A stretch of DNA of 8,664 bases from SAR92 clade bacterium (GTDB taxonomy: Bacteria > Pseudomonadota > Gammaproteobacteria > Pseudomonadales > Porticoccaceae). A program made the translations under genes and the position numbers. The notes below the pieces were generated by a model, which ran no database searches, had not been told where the DNA came from, and saw only the letters and a list, made by a program, of their open reading frames with translations. Below, in pieces: positions 189 through 8,662 of the stretch (the first letter of the stretch is position 1; each line of letters begins with the position of its first letter). Location: positions 1 through 8,664 of the forward strand of contig JABBBF010000146.1 of assembly GCA_018607545.1 (NCBI GenBank). Direction: 5' to 3'.

Positions 189-3100
189 TTAGATTGCTTT
201 TTCTGTGGATAAAAACTTCTTGGCAAATAACTTGGAGGTCAAGGGCTTGCTGAACAGGTAGCCCTGGTAACTATCACAGCCTAATTCTTCGAGTATCTGG
301 CGCTGCTCTTCGGTTTCCACACCCTCGGCAACGGTCTTCATCTTGAGGCTTTTAGCGAGCCCGATAATACCTGCAACTATGGCTCTGTCACTGGGGTCTG
401 ACTCAATATCAGAGATAAATGAACGATCGATTTTTAATACATCTACCGGCAGGCGCTTGAGATAGTTAAGCGAGGAATAGCCACTGCCAAAGTCATCTAC
501 AGCAATGGTGATGCCCATCCGCTTGATCTTGTTAATTTCTGTAATCATTAACTCCGGGTGATCCATCAAAGTGCTCTCGGTAATTTCTAATTCGAGAACT
601 TTTTTCGGCAAGCTATTGCGCTGCACTAGGTCGTGCAATTTACTGTGTAACTCTTCGGCCATCACATCCTTGACCGACAGATTGACTGCAAGGGTCAGTT
701 GATGGCCCTTCTGGATCCAGCGCTTTAACTGCACGGCGGCATTTTCCAGCACCCAGTCGCTGAGCTGATTGATCAAACCGCTCTCCTCGGCAAGGGGAAT
801 AAATACCTCAGGCGACACCAGGCCTTTCACCGGGTGCTGCCAGCGTACAAGTGCTTCGGCGCCAATTAGCTCGCCGGTCTTTAAGTTGACCTGTGGTTGA
901 TAGTGTAAAACCAGCTCATTCTCATCAATGGCTTTGCGCAGTTCCTGTTCCATTTTCAGACGCTTGGCAATCTCCGCCTCCATGCCCTGCTCGTAAAAAC
1001 AGAAATTATTGCGTTTCTCTTTGGCGCAGAACATCGCCGAATCCGCGTGCTTGATCAGGGCGCTGACATCTTCGCCATCGTCGGGGAAAATTGATATGCC
1101 AATACTGGCAGTAACAAACATCTTCTGCTGCATAAACACAAAGGGTTGACCCACTGATCTGCAGATTTTTTCGGCGACACTGGAGGCACCGTCGGGACTC
1201 TCTATATTTTCCAGCACAATGGTAAATTCATCACCCCCAAGGCGGGCAATAAAGTCAGTCTCGCGCACACAGTGACGGATTCGATCGGCAACTGCTTTCA
1301 ATAAAAGATCGCCAGCATCATGACCCATGGTGTCATTGATCATTTTAAAGCGATCCAGGTCGAGAAACAGAATGGCGAAGCGCTGATTTTCTATGGCTGC
1401 ACGGTTAACAATAATGCGTATCTGCTGTTTTAACTGGGCGCGGTTGGGAAGCCCTGTCAGAGGATCGTGGTAGGCGAGCTTCTTAACATCTTTCTCCGCC
1501 TTATTGGCCTTAATCAGGCGTGCCACGCGCTGCTTCATTACTGAGAAGTTAATCGGTTTGGCAATATAATCTGTGGCGCCACTGGAGAAAGCCCTGACAA
1601 TTGAATCTTCGTCTTCAAGAGCAGTCACCATCAACACAGGTATATCTGCACCCTGCGATGTATCCCGAATCATCTGGCAGGCATCAAAACCATCCAGCTC
1701 TGGCATAACCGCATCCATTAGCACCAGATCCGGCATTCGCCGTTTGCAGATATTCAGTGCATGCATGCCATTGCTAGCCTCTTCCACTTCGTAGTTTTCT
1801 TTAAGAAAGGCATCGACTAATGCCATGCGCATGGTGCGATCGTCATCGACCACCAGAATTCGACTGTGATGATCATTTTTAAAGGGGACTTTGACGGTCT
1901 GATTGACCGGTGATATCTCCTGCTTTAGATCATCTTTTAAAATATCAAAGGCGGCAGACATTCTACTGACATGGTCCAGCACGTGGCTGAGGTCATCCCG
2001 AGCGGCGCGGTCCTCGAGAACTTTGCTCAACCCAACCAGTTCATAAGCACCAAAATTAGCGGCGCTGCCCTTGATGGTATGGGCCATTTCGCGAACATGG
2101 CGGGCATTTTTTTCAATGGCAGCAGTTCTTAACTTTTCGAGATAGACCGGGGTATCTTCGACAAAGGCTGAGACCATAGAGGATACAACTTCACCCACCG
2201 CCTCGCGCAGCGCTGCAATCACTTTTACGTCATAACTCAGGGATCTGTAGGCGCTTTCAGGCTGCTTTATCATAGCGGGGCTGGACGACTGGTGCTGCTG
2301 CGCCGGCTTAAATTCACAGGACACCCAGCGCTCCAACTTCTCGCTCAAGCCGCCCAGACTTAGGGGCTTGGGTAAAAAGTCATTCATCCCCACATCCTTA
2401 CAGTGCTCTTCTTCAGCTTCGCTGTTATTTGCTGTCATCGCAATAATAGGCAGAGTTCCCGCTTTATCGCCCTCGAGGTCGCGTATTTTTTCCGTCGCAT
2501 CATAGCCGTTCATCACTGGCATATTGCAATCCATCAATATCAGATCGTAGTGTTCGCGACTCACTCGCTCCAGAGCTTTCTGGCCATTTTCGGCAATGCT
2601 GACCTGACAATTAAGCTTTTCCAGCATGGCCATAGCGACCTGTTGATTGGCTCGATTGTCGTCGACAACCAATACCCTGCAACCATTGCCCTGCGGTTCT
2701 TCTACCAGTTGGTATTCCTCGGATTCGCTGAGGTGTTCGGTAACAAAATATTTAACCAGCAGATCGGAAAAGGAGTTGGAGCGCAACGGCTTATTGAGGC
2801 GCGGCAGAGAGAGTTCGCGAACCTGCGGATCAAGCGCCCAGGGGTTGCTCAGCATCACCGCCAAACGCTGGCTAAAATTTTCTTCCTGTTTAACAAAGCC
2901 AATAAAATCACTGACCTTAATATCACTGATATCCTCATCGACAAACAAAATATCGAAACGCTCCGCAGCGCTGCTATCGCGAATAAGCTGCAGGGCCTCA
3001 GATCCGCAGCTGGAAAATCTAACGCTCAGGCCCAGGGCTCTGAGCTTTTGATCGGCAACTGAATTGAGTATTTCACTGTCACTGACAAACAGCGCATTGA

Positions 3101-4679
3101 TGCCGTCCAGCTCCGCGTAAATCGGAGGCTCTTCTGGGGCCTGACGGGTTTTTATGGGCAGGGTAAAACCAAACTCACTACCGACACCAACCTCACTTGA
3201 GACAAAAATATCACCGCCCATCATCTCAACAATCTGGGCGCTTATGGCCAGGCCCAGGCCCGTACCCTGATATTCTTTGGTATTAGAGGAATCAACCTGG
3301 GTAAAGGCATCAAAGACCCGCGGCTGATCTTCCCGAGAAACGCCTATACCTGTATCTTTAACCACAAATTTAAGCTGAGTCAGGCCCTCGGCTTCCTCTA
3401 AATTGGTGATATCGCGATCGACGCTGACATGAATAGAGACCTCTCCACTCTCGGTAAACTTAACCCCATTGCCAGCCAGGTTGATCAGTACCTGACGAAT
3501 CCTAACGCTGTCTGAATGCAGCGCCTGAGGCACATCTTCATCGACTATATAGCCAATCTCTATATGCTTTTTGAGTGCTGTGCTGGACAGCAGGCCAACA
3601 ATGTCGTCGAGGCTCTCGTTGAGCAGGTAGTCGTGATTGTTAATACTGATCTTTCCGGCATCGCCTTCAGAGAAATCCAGTATCTCGTCGATAAGGCTGA
3701 GTAAACTCTCGCCGGATGACTTGGCTGTCTCCACATACTCTCTCTGTTTGTAGCTCAGCCCCATCGTCAGCAGCAAGTCGAGCATACCTAAAACAGCATT
3801 CATCGGTGTGCGCAACTCGTGGGTTACATTAGCGGCAAATTCACCCTTAACTCGCGCAGATTCCAGCGCCGAATTCATCACCAGTTCCAAAGCGCTCTGA
3901 CGATCTTCGAGCACCTGCATCATGCTATTAAAAGAATCCTGTATCTCGGTAATATCGACCGGGCCATTTACCCGAGCTCTGATCTTTTTCTTTTTACCGT
4001 CTTGAGCCCTCTTCATCACCGCTGACAAACGCTCGATAGGCTGGGTAAGGCGACGGGAAAAATACAGTAGAACAAAGAGTAGAATCATCGCCCCGGCAAA
4101 AGAAACCAAGAGGTTATTTTTCAAGGTACTCTGCTGCATCAGTCGCAAGGTATCTTTGCCGACAATAACCGTAATATAGCCGAGTAACATCTCCTCATCA
4201 GATGTGTTCTGGGCACCCAGACCAATGCCGTCATTGCTAAAAAATACCGGCGATCTAAACTTCCAAAGGTTTTCGTTCTCCTCAACCAGACTTAATTCGT
4301 CGGAGCTGACAGGCCGAGCCTCCGAGGAATCTGCAATCGATGGCTCAAGAGATGTAACACCTATATCAAACAGCAAATCTGATTTTTCTGTTTCAATGAT
4401 AATTCCCTTAACCCCGGGAAAATTAATTGCACTCTTACCTATATCCTCAGCACTTTCAGCACTCTGGTAGAGCAGTGCCACTTCACTTTGGCGGGCCAGT
4501 GACTCGGTTACCTGCATCCCCTGAAGAACCTGATGCCCTTCAATAATGCCACTGGATATCTTGCTGACGACCATCGAGGTGATAGAGGCCAGCAACAGGA
4601 TGCCGACCACGAAAACCAGTGTCAGCTGAGTTTTAAATCTAAGCCTGTCGAACCAGCCTTTTTTAGGGTTTCTTTTCAT
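189..4679 (-). CDS. Membrane hybrid sensor histidine kinase with two REC, Hpt, third REC, GGDEF and EAL domains
   Basis: This 1496-residue inner-membrane protein carries a full phosphorelay and a c-di-GMP output. Domains in order: TM helix ~17-39; periplasmic sensor ~43-186 (CHASE8/BarA-like by impression); TM ~189-208; HAMP ~209-262; HisKA with phospho-acceptor H287 (VTHELRTP); HATPase with N-box N400/N404, DTGIG at 442 and GTGLGLA at 472; REC1 ~526-648, divergent, with S533/D534, D581 and K630; REC2 ~668-786, with D673/D674, D717 and K771; Hpt ~812-917, with H867 (AHTIKGSA); REC3 ~939-1058, with D945/D946, D989, T1019 and K1041; GGDEF ~1068-1228, with an intact GGDEF at 1148-1152 and an RETD inhibitory site at 1139-1142; EAL ~1245-1490. 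In EAL the expected residues are all visible: E1275, N1333, E1365, D1395/D1396, K1416, E1452, Q1472. Both diguanylate cyclase and phosphodiesterase activities therefore look possible. The start lies 2 nt after the stop of the binding-protein gene and has no clear Shine-Dalgarno, which suggests translational coupling. The input ligand is unknown. Confidence 0.96.
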   Translation of the reverse strand: MKRNPKKGWFDRLRFKTQLTLVFVVGILLLASITSMVVSKISSGIIEGHQVLQGMQVTESLARQSEVALLYQSAESAEDIGKSAINFPGVKGIIIETEKSDLLFDIGVTSLEPSIADSSEARPVSSDELSLVEENENLWKFRSPVFFSNDGIGLGAQNTSDEEMLLGYITVIVGKDTLRLMQQSTLKNNLLVSFAGAMILLFVLLYFSRRLTQPIERLSAVMKRAQDGKKKKIRARVNGPVDITEIQDSFNSMMQVLEDRQSALELVMNSALESARVKGEFAANVTHELRTPMNAVLGMLDLLLTMGLSYKQREYVETAKSSGESLLSLIDEILDFSEGDAGKISINNHDYLLNESLDDIVGLLSSTALKKHIEIGYIVDEDVPQALHSDSVRIRQVLINLAGNGVKFTESGEVSIHVSVDRDITNLEEAEGLTQLKFVVKDTGIGVSREDQPRVFDAFTQVDSSNTKEYQGTGLGLAISAQIVEMMGGDIFVSSEVGVGSEFGFTLPIKTRQAPEEPPIYAELDGINALFVSDSEILNSVADQKLRALGLSVRFSSCGSEALQLIRDSSAAERFDILFVDEDISDIKVSDFIGFVKQEENFSQRLAVMLSNPWALDPQVRELSLPRLNKPLRSNSFSDLLVKYFVTEHLSESEEYQLVEEPQGNGCRVLVVDDNRANQQVAMAMLEKLNCQVSIAENGQKALERVSREHYDLILMDCNMPVMNGYDATEKIRDLEGDKAGTLPIIAMTANNSEAEEEHCKDVGMNDFLPKPLSLGGLSEKLERWVSCEFKPAQQHQSSSPAMIKQPESAYRSLSYDVKVIAALREAVGEVVSSMVSAFVEDTPVYLEKLRTAAIEKNARHVREMAHTIKGSAANFGAYELVGLSKVLEDRAARDDLSHVLDHVSRMSAAFDILKDDLKQEISPVNQTVKVPFKNDHHSRILVVDDDRTMRMALVDAFLKENYEVEEASNGMHALNICKRRMPDLVLMDAVMPELDGFDACQMIRDTSQGADIPVLMVTALEDEDSIVRAFSSGATDYIAKPINFSVMKQRVARLIKANKAEKDVKKLAYHDPLTGLPNRAQLKQQIRIIVNRAAIENQRFAILFLDLDRFKMINDTMGHDAGDLLLKAVADRIRHCVRETDFIARLGGDEFTIVLENIESPDGASSVAEKICRSVGQPFVFMQQKMFVTASIGISIFPDDGEDVSALIKHADSAMFCAKEKRNNFCFYEQGMEAEIAKRLKMEQELRKAIDENELVLHYQPQVNLKTGELIGAEALVRWQHPVKGLVSPEVFIPLAEESGLINQLSDWVLENAAVQLKRWIQKGHQLTLAVNLSVKDVMAEELHSKLHDLVQRNSLPKKVLELEITESTLMDHPELMITEINKIKRMGITIAVDDFGSGYSSLNYLKRLPVDVLKIDRSFISDIESDPSDRAIVAGIIGLAKSLKMKTVAEGVETEEQRQILEELGCDSYQGYLFSKPLTSKLFAKKFLSTEKAI

Positions 4680-4681
4680 TG

Positions 4682-5611
4682 TTAGCGCGCCGGAAGTGTC
4701 AAATCAATATGGGTGCGCATCTCATCGGTAAGATCAATACCCAGGTGGTTGCTGGTGCGCTCATTCACAGTAACGAACACATCCTCCAACGCCTGCATCT
4801 GGCGTTGCGGAGAATTACCCTGGACTATATCCTGAGCCAGGCGGCCGAGACTTAAACCCATTTTGTAATTGTTTGGATATATCGAAAAAAGCGCACCGCG
4901 TTTCACATGGACGGGATTTGAAGAGAAAACTACAAAGTGCTTTTCCCATGATTCATGAAGCAGAATGGCTAACATAGCATTGTTCATAAAGGAGCCTTTG
5001 GGCAGGATCCACACCGCATCCTCTTTATCCAGTGTCTGCATAAGATCCCGATAGACCTTGGCGGCAACCCTGATATCCTCAGCCTGATAAATTGATAGCT
5101 GAATACCTTGCTGTGACAGCGCCTCTGTTGCCCGATCAAAATCCAGCAGGTTGTTTTCAGCATTGGTCACTATATGGACAGTCTTTATTCCGGGCACCAG
5201 AACCGGCAGCTTATTGGCGATAACCGCGGCGTCGGGAATAAGCGTAATACCAAATACATCAGTGTATTCAGTGCTTACTGCGCCAACAATTAAATCTCTA
5301 TCGGCATTGTGTTCGGTGACCTGCCGTGCCAGTCGGTTGCCGAGAACTAACACCGGAGAACTCTGGTCCAGAACATGCACAAAGTCGACTGGCGATTGAT
5401 TTTCAGCCATAGAGACGCGCCTGACTTTCTGCTGATAGCCCTCCTCTGCTCCTCGAACTACCTCTTCAAAAACTCTGGCGAAGGGTTCGCGCACCTCTGG
5501 GTAAATAATCACCAGATCAACGGCGCTCTTGGCAACAGTAACAGCACCAGCTTGGCACAGAAATCCCATGGAGATCAGACCGACTAAAGTCAGCCAAAAT
5601 ACAGACACCAT
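4682..5611 (-). CDS. Periplasmic ABC-type substrate-binding protein (ABC_sub_bind / PF04392-like), orphan
   Basis: The 309-residue protein has a hydrophobic N-terminus with a probable signal peptidase I site near residue 23 (CQAGA/VT). No lipobox is seen, so it should be soluble in the periplasm. The second half has the pattern of the ABC_sub_bind family: a strand ending in HFVVFSSNPVHVKRGALFSI (225-244), then Y245 and a helix MGLSLGRLAQDIVQGNSP, and a C-terminal NERTSNHLGI segment near 283-292. This family binds small solutes for ABC importers, but no permease or ATPase gene is present here. The gene ends 2 nt before the kinase gene, so its likely job is to deliver a ligand to the kinase sensor domain (inference). 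The ligand cannot be read from the sequence. The start is uncertain: ATG at 5611-5609 lacks a well-placed Shine-Dalgarno and gives a signal peptide with no positive charge, whereas GGGAG at 5638-5634 points to an in-frame ATA at 5626-5624. GTG at 5608-5606 is also possible. Confidence 0.92.
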   Translation of the reverse strand: MVSVFWLTLVGLISMGFLCQAGAVTVAKSAVDLVIIYPEVREPFARVFEEVVRGAEEGYQQKVRRVSMAENQSPVDFVHVLDQSSPVLVLGNRLARQVTEHNADRDLIVGAVSTEYTDVFGITLIPDAAVIANKLPVLVPGIKTVHIVTNAENNLLDFDRATEALSQQGIQLSIYQAEDIRVAAKVYRDLMQTLDKEDAVWILPKGSFMNNAMLAILLHESWEKHFVVFSSNPVHVKRGALFSIYPNNYKMGLSLGRLAQDIVQGNSPQRQMQALEDVFVTVNERTSNHLGIDLTDEMRTHIDLTLPAR

Positions 5612-5722: not shown

Positions 5723-7852
5723 TTAAAAGCTATAGCGGATTTCACCCAATACTGTTCTACCTGATAAGGGTAGATCATTGGGTATAAAAGGCACTGGGGC
5801 AGAGTTGGGGCTCGGCTCTCGAGCGTCCTCATCAAAAGCATTATTAATCGTAAACCCTAGCTCAAACGACTTAGTTAATACCTTTCGAACTGATACGTCG
5901 ACAATAAGATAATCATCAACCTGTGGACGTGAATCTCCTATCATGCGATTCCGATCCATCACCCAGTTAGCCTGCATATTCACTCGCCAATCACTGGGCA
6001 ATGTCCAGTCGCCACGCAGATAAAACTGCTTTTCCGGTGATTTGGAAGCTGCTACATCAAGGGTTTCATCAGTAGATTTCTGAATGGAAAAGTTACTGCT
6101 GATAGTTAAATCATCTGTCGCTGACCAATTGACCTCAAACTCCATACCGTAACCAGTCTGCTCGCCGGCATTTTGCGCCGTTCGAGTACTGCCACTCATA
6201 TCCGGTATAAACTGAATAATATCTGTCCAGTCATAGTAGAAAAAATTGGTATTCAAGGTTAATTCATAGTTCGGACGATAATCGAATGCAATCTCATAAC
6301 TCTTAATCTCTTCCGGCTTAAGATCGATATTACCCAGAATCAATGGATTGTTAATTGCTCTTGTCTGGGCAAAAGATGGCGCACGAAATGCCTCGCCGTA
6401 GAGGAACTTGGTGGTTAACTTATAGCTGGTCGACCAGACCAGCGCGATACGCGGGTTGGTGGTAGAACCAAAATCGGAATATTTATCGAAACGAAGACCT
6501 GCGGTCAGCTCCCAGTCATTGTCAATCAACCAGACATCCTGAACGTACAGATAGTGATTGTCCCGCTCGTCTTCAGTCAAAAATACCAGCGGTGTGTCAG
6601 AGACATCCACTAGCGGATCACCGGGCAAAATCGGCAACAATGTGTCCGGGTGGATACCAAAGTTTTTCTCTTCGGTAACCTTGTCGATCTGGCCATGGTA
6701 ATAGCCGCTGCCCATACTCAGATTGTGGTGCTCTATACCTTTGTAGTTGAGACGCAGGCTAGCGCGAAAATGATTTTCAAAAATTTCCGGATTGCCTATT
6801 ACGCCGTCAGGGAAAGGCGGAAATATCGGCGCGCCAAGTGAATCGAAAAATGGACCTCTGGAACCCGGGGGATAGAGAATAAAGTTGCCTTCAACTTCCT
6901 GGGAGGTATCCAGATAACTGGCCTGAAACTCAAGGGAGGTGTTTTTAGAAAGTTCGGCTTCTGTATAGGTGAAATCAAAATTTAAACGCTGGCTGGCAAA
7001 TTTATTTTTTCTATTGAGTGTTTCAGCTACACCGGCACCATCGCCAATACCTTTACGAATTTGACTGCCCAACCTAAAGCGCATCTTTTTGTACAGGGCT
7101 TCAAGTCTGATATCGATATTTTGCTGGGAGCGATTAACCGATCCCGGCGCATTTGATACTGAGGTTCCCGAGAGAAAATCCAGCAGGCTCTGAGCATCAC
7201 TCTCAATCTGCTCATCAGTACCATCGGTTTCACCCAATTCAATAATCGCCGAATAGGCCATCTCGCCCGCTTCACCCTCTGCAGCAACCCAAGCTCCTCT
7301 CGTACCAAAGTTACCTATAGTTGCACCGGCAGAATTTTTCTCCAACTCTTCCGGCCCTTTGGTAACTATATTAATAACACCGGCAAAGGCATCGGCACCA
7401 TAGAGCGCAGAACCCGGCCCACGAATTACCTCTATCCTTTCAATTGCCTCAACTGGCATACCGGTCCAGATTAAATTTCGGTCTCCCTGAAATAAATTAG
7501 TCAGTGGGATGCCATTTATTAGCATTAGTACTTGAGGATTAAAGTCAGCATTAACACCACGAAAGATGTACATAGAGTTATAAAGGGGACTGTGAGTAAT
7601 ATGAAGGCCCGGAACGCTCTCAAGAACCTGATCAATATCTCTGACACCCATAGCCTGAATCTGCTGGGCCGTAATTACCGAGGCGACTGCCGGAGCTTTG
7701 GCAATGGGCTGAACACTACCTGTGGCAATAGAGACAAAGTCTTCATCACCATAGAATCCAGCAAAATCAACATCCGAATCTAAACTATCCTGACCCAAGC
7801 TATTAATTGAAATTAGCCCTGCTACTAAAAATACTCCATATAGTTTACACAT
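5723..7852 (-). CDS. TonB-dependent outer-membrane receptor
   Basis: The 709-residue protein has a short signal peptide (cleavage near residue 20). A likely TonB-box region follows at about 36-45 (DEDFVSIATG). The plug domain spans ~46-165 and includes SVITAQQIQAMG, DIDQVLESVPGL and the typical end IERIEVIRGPGSALYGADAF (137-156) then AGVINIVTK. A C-terminal beta-barrel ends in ...GEIRYSF, a terminal Phe as expected for Bam-assembled barrels. The length fits siderophore/cobalamin-type receptors (about 600-750). Receptors of this class take up scarce ligands such as iron chelates, vitamins or other organics using TonB energy; the substrate here cannot be named. The segment at ~327-350 (YPPGSRGPFF...PPFPDG) is rich in Pro, Gly and Phe and is probably an extracellular loop. 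The ATG lies 3 nt after the stop of the citrate synthase-like gene with a strong Shine-Dalgarno, so the two genes almost certainly share a transcript. No TonB/ExbBD genes are in view. Confidence 0.96.
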   Translation of the reverse strand: MCKLYGVFLVAGLISINSLGQDSLDSDVDFAGFYGDEDFVSIATGSVQPIAKAPAVASVITAQQIQAMGVRDIDQVLESVPGLHITHSPLYNSMYIFRGVNADFNPQVLMLINGIPLTNLFQGDRNLIWTGMPVEAIERIEVIRGPGSALYGADAFAGVINIVTKGPEELEKNSAGATIGNFGTRGAWVAAEGEAGEMAYSAIIELGETDGTDEQIESDAQSLLDFLSGTSVSNAPGSVNRSQQNIDIRLEALYKKMRFRLGSQIRKGIGDGAGVAETLNRKNKFASQRLNFDFTYTEAELSKNTSLEFQASYLDTSQEVEGNFILYPPGSRGPFFDSLGAPIFPPFPDGVIGNPEIFENHFRASLRLNYKGIEHHNLSMGSGYYHGQIDKVTEEKNFGIHPDTLLPILPGDPLVDVSDTPLVFLTEDERDNHYLYVQDVWLIDNDWELTAGLRFDKYSDFGSTTNPRIALVWSTSYKLTTKFLYGEAFRAPSFAQTRAINNPLILGNIDLKPEEIKSYEIAFDYRPNYELTLNTNFFYYDWTDIIQFIPDMSGSTRTAQNAGEQTGYGMEFEVNWSATDDLTISSNFSIQKSTDETLDVAASKSPEKQFYLRGDWTLPSDWRVNMQANWVMDRNRMIGDSRPQVDDYLIVDVSVRKVLTKSFELGFTINNAFDEDAREPSPNSAPVPFIPNDLPLSGRTVLGEIRYSF

Positions 7853-7855
7853 GCT

Positions 7856-8662
7856 CTACACCTCCCAGTGTCTGACCTCTTCGACGCCTGTATAACTGAG
7901 TCGAGAGGTTCGCAAGGGGAAAAATCCTCCCTCCTGCTGATTACTTGCATCGATAAAACAGGGCATAGCGCCAGCGGTAAAAGACAGGGTAGCCAGGTTA
8001 TACAATTCAACTGGATCTATACCTTCGTCAGCCAACAATGCTGCACAAACTGCCGCTATATTGATCTTGTATTTAAGTCTGGTACTGCTTAAATACTCAT
8101 CTACCTCAAAGGCCAATTTGACATACTTGCCATTGCCACAGCCAATTGAACGAGCAAATTCCATCATTGGCTTTACGCGTTCATCCGCATCTGCAATAGG
8201 CCGTCCATAACCGTACACACTGCGGAACTGCTTTAGCTCTGCCTTCACTATCTGCTCTAAACACTCACCCTGTTCTAGTCGCTGATCTGCACGAATTAGG
8301 AAATCTGAAGCACCTTTAATTGGCTTTAACCCGTATACCGTCGCCTCTGTTACTGCCAGCGATCCAGCTGCGGCCAAAACTCCAGTTGAGCGAGCAGTTC
8401 CTGCCAGTGCAGAGATCCGGTTATTCCAGATGCGCGGGTCGGGAAAGCTGGTACAGATCACCCAAATAGCTTCTATTAAGCGCGCTATCCTAGGCGATTC
8501 TTTGCCGGTTGCCGCATATAACAGATATTCCATCCATGGTTTTTCATTCAACTCGGCAAAAACATCCTTGCCGCGCAAAACAACTTCCCCCTCAAGAGAC
8601 CAACCGCCCATTGAGGTTTGCCAATTATCCTCAAACTTCTCTAACTTACTGTGAACCGACAT
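7856..8662 (-). CDS. Citrate synthase / citryl-CoA lyase fold protein with altered catalytic residues
   Basis: The 268-residue protein shows the citrate synthase fold by pattern. An early EGEVVLRGKDVFAEL (24-38) resembles the family's LRGYDIEEL. ALAGTARSTGVLAAAGSLA (85-103) matches the helix before the first active-site His. VYGYGRPIADADER (149-162) matches G-F-G-H-R/P-x-Y-x-x-x-D-P-R. YKINIAAVCAALL (198-210) matches NVDFYSGALL. RTSRLSYTG (251-259) matches the C-terminal RPRQLYTG. At the catalytic positions I read Y110 (or a neighbour) for the first His, R154 for the second His and N201 for the Asp; F228 replaces a substrate-binding Arg. The protein is much shorter than citrate synthase (about 370-430) and close to citryl-CoA lyase modules (about 260-280). 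It is probably cytoplasmic, with no signal peptide. Enzymatic citrate synthesis is unlikely; it may bind an acyl-CoA or organic acid, or catalyse something different. The ATG is 2 nt from the window edge, so a start further upstream cannot be excluded. Confidence 0.85.
   Translation of the reverse strand: MSVHSKLEKFEDNWQTSMGGWSLEGEVVLRGKDVFAELNEKPWMEYLLYAATGKESPRIARLIEAIWVICTSFPDPRIWNNRISALAGTARSTGVLAAAGSLAVTEATVYGLKPIKGASDFLIRADQRLEQGECLEQIVKAELKQFRSVYGYGRPIADADERVKPMMEFARSIGCGNGKYVKLAFEVDEYLSSTRLKYKINIAAVCAALLADEGIDPVELYNLATLSFTAGAMPCFIDASNQQEGGFFPLRTSRLSYTGVEEVRHWEV
7861..7865 (-). promoter_or_regulatory. Ribosome binding site of the TonB-dependent receptor gene, inside the preceding gene
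   Basis: GGAGG (part of GGGAGGTG, 7866-7859) lies 8 nt before ATG 7852-7850. It overlaps the last codons (Trp-Glu-Val) of the citrate synthase-like gene. It fixes the receptor start and ties translation of the two genes together. Confidence 0.8.

Follow-up and report, generated by a model that had tools for sequence, protein, structure and literature searches.

Citrate-synthase-fold proteins without a full catalytic triad recur with a ThDP enzyme, a TonB-dependent receptor and sensory genes in Gammaproteobacteria

Introduction

What might a protein that has the fold of citrate synthase and lacks its canonical catalytic residues be doing directly beside the gene of a TonB-dependent receptor? 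The question is raised by an 8,664-nucleotide stretch of DNA from a SAR92 clade bacterium (the window), in which a gene for a 268-aa protein, here called CSB (positions 7856–8662, minus strand), ends 3 nt before such a receptor gene. The first-pass annotation had proposed a pseudoenzyme or a neofunctionalised citrate-synthase-fold protein tied to this receptor. Our comparison across genomes supports that proposal and also reveals it to be incomplete, as the recurring unit is larger: CSB is joined in it by another gene resembling citrate synthase (CSA) and by genes for a ThDP enzyme, a binding protein and a sensor. Because the window stops 2 nt beyond the CSB start codon, the genes upstream of CSB lie outside it and are visible in relatives only.

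Results

CSB is an intact protein of the citrate synthase fold

We characterised CSB by its open reading frame, NCBIfam matches, a predicted structure model with fold search, and conservation. Its best NCBIfam match was the citryl-CoA lyase model NF004868 (E 3.1e-12) at 46 bits against a cut-off of 193, and CSB reached the curated NCBIfam score of neither citrate synthase nor citryl-CoA lyase. No Pfam domain was found in CSB, nor in the CSA of the related locus L001. A PDB search with the single CSB sequence returned a chance match only, while one with a profile of 24 CSB-family sequences led to citryl-CoA lyase, and the fold search with the predicted model placed CSB nearest to 6HXP, the citryl-CoA lyase of Hydrogenobacter thermophilus. 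By model and fold search CSB thus has the citrate synthase/citryl-CoA lyase fold, and the fold first read from the flagged frame was borne out by these together with the NF004868 match below its cut-off.

Comparison with the three closest loci tested gave dN/dS values of 0.09–0.10, so that CSB is under purifying selection. A decaying gene is ruled out by this ratio of ~0.1, and the earlier description of an intact, non-decaying frame 3 nt from the receptor gene holds in both spacing and dN/dS (0.10). Source names of the taxa with homologues include Porticoccaceae, SAR92, Porticoccus, Cellvibrio, Thalassocella and others; the homologue P0265 comes from the environmental strain Cellvibrio sp. 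PSBB006. One CSB homologue of 57% identity (P0098) is filed under a Flavobacteriales MAG, through either transfer or mis-binning.

The catalytic residues are replaced by other invariant residues

Residues were placed on an alignment that joined the family profile to GltA of E. coli and to four short proteins of the citrate synthase fold from other genomes. Counts drew on 91 loci, which yielded CSB of the right length in 89 and CSA in 83, with the window supplying the 90th CSB; locus L006 was left out because its CSB is broken. At the position of the second catalytic histidine (His305), all 90 CSB sequences carry Arg154, within a motif G-Y-G-R154-P-x4-D-E-R162 (8177–8212, minus strand; GltA alignment and counts in 90 CSB) that replaces the G-F-G-H ... 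D-P-R of citrate synthase. The D-P-R arginine is retained as R162 in 90/90, accompanied by D160 in 87/90 and E161 in 84/90. Where citrate synthase has N-V-D362, the window CSB has N201-I-A203 (8054–8062, minus strand; alignment and counts): the Asn is kept as N201 in 90/90, while the Asp is lost, with Ala203 at the Asp362 position and Asp at 199–205 in 0/90. The loop of the first catalytic histidine (E. coli His264) corresponds to CSB residues 110–117 (Y-G-L-K-P-I-K-G; 8312–8335, minus strand; alignment and counts), which hold no conserved His. The His264 position falls in a gap after L112 or at I115 of the window CSB, depending on the alignment, and His occurs nearby, with uncertain placement, at column 112 in 10 of the 90 sequences, at 113 in 1, at 117 in 2 and at 119 in 2. 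P74, W79, N81 and G151 are also invariant (90/90).

Both the GltA alignment and the 90 sequences therefore agree with the first-pass annotation that the canonical His/His/Asp triad is missing, and the substitutions are consistent across the 90 homologues rather than random. Its reading of the triad as Tyr, Arg and Asn was right for the second His, which is Arg, and wrong elsewhere, as the Asp position is Ala (the conserved Asn, N201, stands two residues before it) and no clear counterpart exists for the first His. Because the substitutions are conserved over 90 sequences, the catalytic residue losses are fixed across the CSB family. The invariant charged or polar residues R154, R162 and N201 lie at or beside former active-site positions, which suggests that the pocket is in use, and the two invariant arginines in the predicted site suggest an anionic partner for CSA and CSB.

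Among the four comparison proteins inspected by eye, which come from the six control matches outside the cassette, L124 and L129 show His, His and Asp motifs. The other two, L126 and L128, keep a GH motif and miss the other catalytic motifs (also by eye), so partial loss of the triad is not confined to the cassette.

CSB is paired with a second divergent paralogue behind a ThDP enzyme

The locus L001, from a Pseudomonadales MAG, is collinear with the window (8,576 bases, 87.7%), and in it CSB is preceded by a 263-aa CSA and a 610-aa ThDP enzyme. Given this collinearity, both genes presumably also lie upstream of CSB in the window's own genome, beyond the window. CSA matches citryl-CoA lyase models of NCBIfam below their cut-offs, its predicted model (mean pLDDT 92.1) is nearest to 6HXP (E 3.7e-9), and its profile aligns with that of CSB at an hhalign E of 6.7e-17. 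The Asp position is never Asp in 83/83 CSA and the His columns are unconserved, with His in 17/83 at column 112, which aligns with the first His, and in 26/83 at column 163, one past the second, such that neither CSA nor CSB keeps the full catalytic triad. Records nevertheless name the CSA homologues P0126, P0141, P0144 and others 'citryl-CoA lyase'.

CSA and CSB share a strand, with CSA on the upstream side and no more than 300 nt away in 75/78 loci. The two genes overlap by 4 nt in 28/82 loci, and in a further 49/82 CSB starts within −30 to +60 of the CSA stop. The pair stays with the ThDP enzyme while CSB diverges to ~26% identity. From sequence and gene context, a CSA/CSB heteromer is likely.

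The L001 ThDP enzyme carries the Pfam TPP N, M and C domains, and its family has the motifs of such enzymes, with a strict catalytic-Glu pattern in 73/78 module members and GDG..N in 77/78; a looser Glu pattern adds one more case and leaves 4/78 without. Among solved structures, those closest to the enzyme are BbmA (288 bits) and CsmA (236 bits), with acetolactate synthases at 195 bits or less. In the passages cited here, CsmA and 'BpmA' are given as homologues of CybE (PMC12395478), which performs an acyloin condensation of two alpha-keto acids (PMC12395478, PMC13288894), and the module ThDP enzyme may likewise be an acyloin-condensing carboligase. The next furanolide enzyme, CybF, is of the 3-oxoacyl-ACP-synthase type according to the cited part of PMC8777810, and the product of the module need therefore not be a furanolide. 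The furanolide pathway as such was rejected as an identity for the module, CybF so described being of another fold family than CSA and CSB.

The cassette recurs across Gammaproteobacteria

Searching genomes at three taxonomic levels recovered CSB in 45 of 390 genomes of the order (E 1e-20 or better), 45 of 369 of the class (two weak matches, two fragments) and 15 of 398 of the phylum (five weak), so that ~12% of the sampled Gammaproteobacteria carry it (43/369, two weak matches left out). The strong loci analysed numbered 40, 38 and 8, respectively. Left out were five of the 45 order-level genomes (G001, G165, G084, G306 and G017) and seven of the 45 class-level matches (the G001 repeat, G586, G650, the fragments G428 and G446, and the weak matches G079 and G748, the last two being used as controls). 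Of the 15 phylum-level matches, the repeats G001 and G480 were dropped and the weak G760, G862, G885, G978 and G079 served as controls. Components were labelled with HMMs trained on L001–L006, L015 and the order-level loci, with class- and phylum-level loci out of sample.

These comparisons revealed four recurring companions of the CSA–CSB pair: a ThDP enzyme of the acyloin-condensing type, a TonB receptor from one subfamily, a binding protein of PF04392, and a sensor that is either a histidine kinase or a GGDEF/EAL protein. By six-frame count, the 40 order-level loci held the ThDP enzyme in 37, CSA in 40, the receptor in 39, the binding protein in 26 and the sensor in 34; the corresponding numbers were 30, 34, 32, 26 and 34 for the 38 class-level loci and 8, 8, 4, 4 and 7 for the 8 phylum-level loci. 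Twenty control windows of 18.7 kb from CSB-carrying genomes held 0, 0, 2, 0 and 8, and each component was enriched in the order and class sets against these windows (Fisher p 6e-4 or lower), which were hand-placed at round coordinates rather than at random. Kinases are common, as the 8/20 control windows with a sensor label show. The linkage of CSB to a TonB receptor, suggested from the window alone, thus extends to 39/40, 32/38 and 4/8 loci at the three levels, as against 2/20 control windows.

Restricting the counts to loci with at least 8 kb on both flanks gave ThDP 25, CSA 25, receptor 25, binding protein 19 and sensor 22 of 25 at order level, 22, 25, 23, 19 and 24 of 26 at class level, and 4, 4, 2, 2 and 4 of 4 at phylum level; the 26 class-level loci thus missed the ThDP enzyme in 4, the receptor in 3, the binding protein in 7 and the sensor in 2. 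All six components occurred together in 25/40 order-, 22/38 class- and 4/8 phylum-level loci (51/86 in total), and the 35/86 loci without at least one component are in many, not all, cases at contig ends. After grouping at 60% CSB identity, the 51 groups had the ThDP enzyme in 46, CSA in 48, the receptor in 45, the binding protein in 37, the sensor in 46 and all six in 35.

Gene order and strand vary among loci. In L001–L006, within the limits of each contig, the genes run ThDP enzyme, CSA, CSB, receptor, PF04392-type binding protein, giant sensor; L005 has this run intact between flanking genes unmatched in L001. Around six weaker citrate-synthase-fold matches outside the module, the HMMs gave no ThDP, receptor, PF04392 or sensor label. 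A search of the open-licence PMC literature found no description of the cassette. At L006:10001-12946, from the X_MB111 assembly, CSB is split between frames and the receptor frame is shortened, with small length differences from L001, while the ThDP, CSA, binding-protein and sensor frames look whole, as might arise by recent decay or by long-read errors.

The enzymes are attached to a sensory trio with variable outputs

The window receptor (709 aa; 5723–7852, minus strand; Pfam Plug and beta-barrel) lies 3 nt downstream of CSB. Scored with the module receptor HMM, 33/37 receptor matches of class-level loci reach 701–972, phylum-level module receptors (L120–L123) score weakly at 447–463, and receptors of trios without the enzymes score 114–193 in 8/9 cases and 479 in one.

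Next is a PF04392 substrate-binding protein, presumed periplasmic (309 aa; 4682–5611, minus strand; Pfam PF04392 E 1.2e-9, and linkage), beside whose L001 counterpart no ABC permease or ATPase was recognised by eye. PF04392 is rare, with 36 matches in 20 genomes (~0.6 per Mb), a lower bound on the family because the Pfam model misses some module binding proteins (none matched in G064 or G480). Of 19 PF04392 matches outside the module, 10 were taken for neighbourhood comparison; a TonB receptor accompanied 9, a kinase or GGDEF/EAL protein 9, and ThDP, CSA or CSB none, so the sensory trio exists alone and the cassette is a receptor–binding protein–sensor trio with enzymes attached. The same genomes repeatedly carry such trios of receptor, PF04392 protein and kinase or GGDEF protein with no biosynthetic genes attached (L131–L140), and we found no paper on a general receptor–PF04392–sensor device in the open-licence PMC literature.

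The sensor of the window (1496 aa; 189–4679, minus strand) is by domain scan a hybrid kinase of sCache_4-HAMP-HisKA-HATPase-receiver-Hpt-receiver-GGDEF-EAL arrangement, with kinase, receivers, Hpt, GGDEF and EAL joined in a single chain. Sensors vary between lineages. In L060 the sensor consists of two chains, a kinase encoded next to the binding protein and a distinct receiver-PAS-GGDEF-EAL protein, and other loci are similar by HMM label. Loci without the PF04392 protein can hold a YfiR/HmsC-like domain (L050, L066, L087) or an SBP_bac_3 protein (L050, with a below-cut-off match in L070). A methyl-accepting chemotaxis protein (domain scan) replaces the kinase beside CSB at L061:9788-11431; L064 has a gene of the same size and place, known by position rather than by domain scan. 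In L116–L119 the ThDP–CSA–CSB genes have no TonB receptor and adjoin a large protein of 1,727–1,771 aa in 3/4, L117 being cut by the contig end; the domain scan of L116 reads it as Ser/Thr kinase-AAA-GAF-histidine kinase, with a LuxR-type regulator. Sensor output is thus directed to c-di-GMP or chemotaxis, and in one variant to a LuxR-type regulator.

Discussion

A possible circuit that makes and senses its own signal

The reading that we favour, and to which we give slightly less than an even chance, is that a small molecule is made by the ThDP enzyme together with CSA and CSB, is secreted, and reaches the sensor by way of the receptor and the binding protein, forming a circuit for a self-made signal. 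The reaction, the secretion and the match of sensed ligand to own product are each steps that we infer from sequence. In the ThDP step, an acyloin-type condensation would couple one keto acid either to a second one or to some other acyl donor or acceptor. CSB would be half of a tandem, probably heteromeric, pair with CSA, its old catalytic residues having given way to the invariant Arg/Arg/Asn set, and the pair would bind an anionic partner, possibly linked to CoA, and either transform it or pass it along. After secretion, the TonB receptor would recapture the product, the PF04392 protein would bind it in the periplasm, and its presence would be signalled to the sCache_4 kinase, which would set c-di-GMP through its relay and GGDEF-EAL domains. 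Several points count against this reading: no product exporter was identified, 35/86 loci lack at least one component, the receptor is absent from L116–L119 and matches the module model weakly in L120–L123, kinases are common in control windows, 4/78 ThDP enzymes lack the catalytic-Glu pattern, triad residues are also partly lost outside the cassette, and a substrate-induced catabolic unit would look alike.

More speculatively, and with a chance that we put nearer to one in three than to one half, the cassette could represent a widespread, previously undescribed cell–cell (or self-) signalling system of Gammaproteobacteria, in which a ThDP carboligase and an obligate re-wired citrate-synthase pair would produce a new class of autoinducer. 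A dedicated TonB receptor would pass this to the periplasmic binding protein and kinase and on to c-di-GMP, with sensors exchanged between lineages and the synthase trio constant. If the circuit is real, ~12% of the sampled Gammaproteobacteria, including marine relatives of SAR92 and Porticoccaceae, would possess a small-molecule circuit, so far uncharacterised, in which biosynthesis is coupled to capture at the outer membrane and, often, to control of c-di-GMP. It would also offer a clear case of two enzyme paralogues that have lost the standard catalytic set and nonetheless remain associated, and several homologues now called 'citryl-CoA lyase' or 'citrate synthase' would need renaming. The three-gene synthase set is small enough for expression with a mass spectrometry readout.

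Alternative explanations

The main rival, which we consider unlikely though deserving of weight, is catabolic uptake, whereby a carboxylic or keto-acid compound in short supply would enter through the receptor and be cleaved by the ThDP enzyme and CSA/CSB, with the binding protein and kinase sensing the nutrient. A TonB receptor, a periplasmic binding protein and cytosolic C–C enzymes form a common layout for nutrient use, lyases of the citrate synthase fold are known, and the sensory trio is also found without the enzymes, all of which fit such uptake. Against it, metabolic or transport families do not accompany the module regularly in 52 locus groups (clusters in at least 4 groups; some loci without a CSB frame counted as their own groups): a mixed ABC-ATPase cluster occurred in 13 and two unnamed clusters in 6 and 5, and clusters read by eye as short-chain dehydrogenase, CheW-like, ComF-like, molybdate-type permease plus binding protein, and biotin synthase in 4 each. 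The outputs, being c-di-GMP, chemotaxis or a LuxR-type regulator, are moreover those of general signalling.

We regard it as rather improbable that CSA and CSB are a pair of pseudoenzymes without catalysis of their own, whose regulatory or structural role would be to control the ThDP enzyme or to bind acyl-CoA, leaving the chemistry to the ThDP enzyme. The full triad is kept in neither protein, as this explanation would have it, but the invariance of R154, R162 and N201 in 90/90 CSB suggests a used pocket, and the pair's persistence with the ThDP enzyme down to ~26% CSB identity also speaks against it.

Less likely again, with a small chance of being correct, is a metallophore, in which the enzymes would produce a hydroxycarboxylate that chelates iron or another metal and returns with it through the receptor. 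Hydroxy-carboxylates do chelate iron, and among the NCBIfam models that the receptor matches, below cut-offs, are those of siderophore and haem receptors; on the other side, the sensor ends in GGDEF/EAL and a Fur-box-like signal is absent, which bears on iron and not on other metals. Across 150 regions upstream of ThDP or receptor genes, the mean best Fur-box match was 11.1/19 against 11.0 in shuffled sequence, with none at 15 or above, using a general Fur-box consensus. An iron siderophore was rejected on this absence of a Fur-type operator.

That these are an ordinary citryl-CoA lyase or citrate synthase, as the fold and the source names 'citryl-CoA lyase' and 'citrate synthase' on some CSA and CSB homologues would have it, is very improbable given Arg at the second His in 90/90 CSB, no Asp in 90/90 CSB and 83/83 CSA, and NCBIfam scores far under the cut-offs.

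Comparison with known systems

Citryl-CoA lyase (6HXP) and the CCL module of ATP-citrate lyase resemble CSB in whole-chain fold, in a length of ~260 residues and in the DPR-type arginine (R162), whereas CSB has no canonical His/His/Asp, is one of two tandem divergent paralogues and is linked to a ThDP enzyme and sensors. In LuxP/LuxQ-type sensing, a periplasmic binding protein feeds a hybrid kinase, as we propose for the cassette; the cassette differs in its PF04392 protein, sCache_4 kinase, GGDEF/EAL output and biosynthesis genes within the unit.

Among solved structures the module ThDP enzyme is nearest to BbmA and CsmA, which belong with CybE to the cyanobacterin and furanolide pathways, and its catalytic motifs are mostly present. 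In the furanolide pathway CybF follows (PMC8777810), whereas the module has the citrate-synthase-fold pair, and the passages cited mention no sensory genes for that pathway. Azoarcus sp. BH72, in the part of its description cited here, has a hitherto unidentified, small and hydrophilic autoinducer and neither an AHL nor an AI-2 synthase (PMC3262810).

In ScrABC of Vibrio parahaemolyticus, as described in the passage cited, ScrA makes a signal, ScrB binds it periplasmically and ScrC (GGDEF/EAL) alters c-di-GMP (PMC11315295). The shared layout is a signal-making enzyme, a periplasmic binding protein and a c-di-GMP enzyme (PMC11315295), and the L001 run, the window and the recurrence reveal enzyme, periplasmic binding protein and GGDEF/EAL genes in one unit. 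ScrA, however, is given there as an aminotransferase while the module synthase is by Pfam a ThDP enzyme, and the operon as described has no TonB receptor or citrate-synthase-fold pair, unlike the cassette. The likeness to ScrABC is therefore one of layout, by which it may be taken as the closest working analogue of a cassette that is not itself a member of that system.
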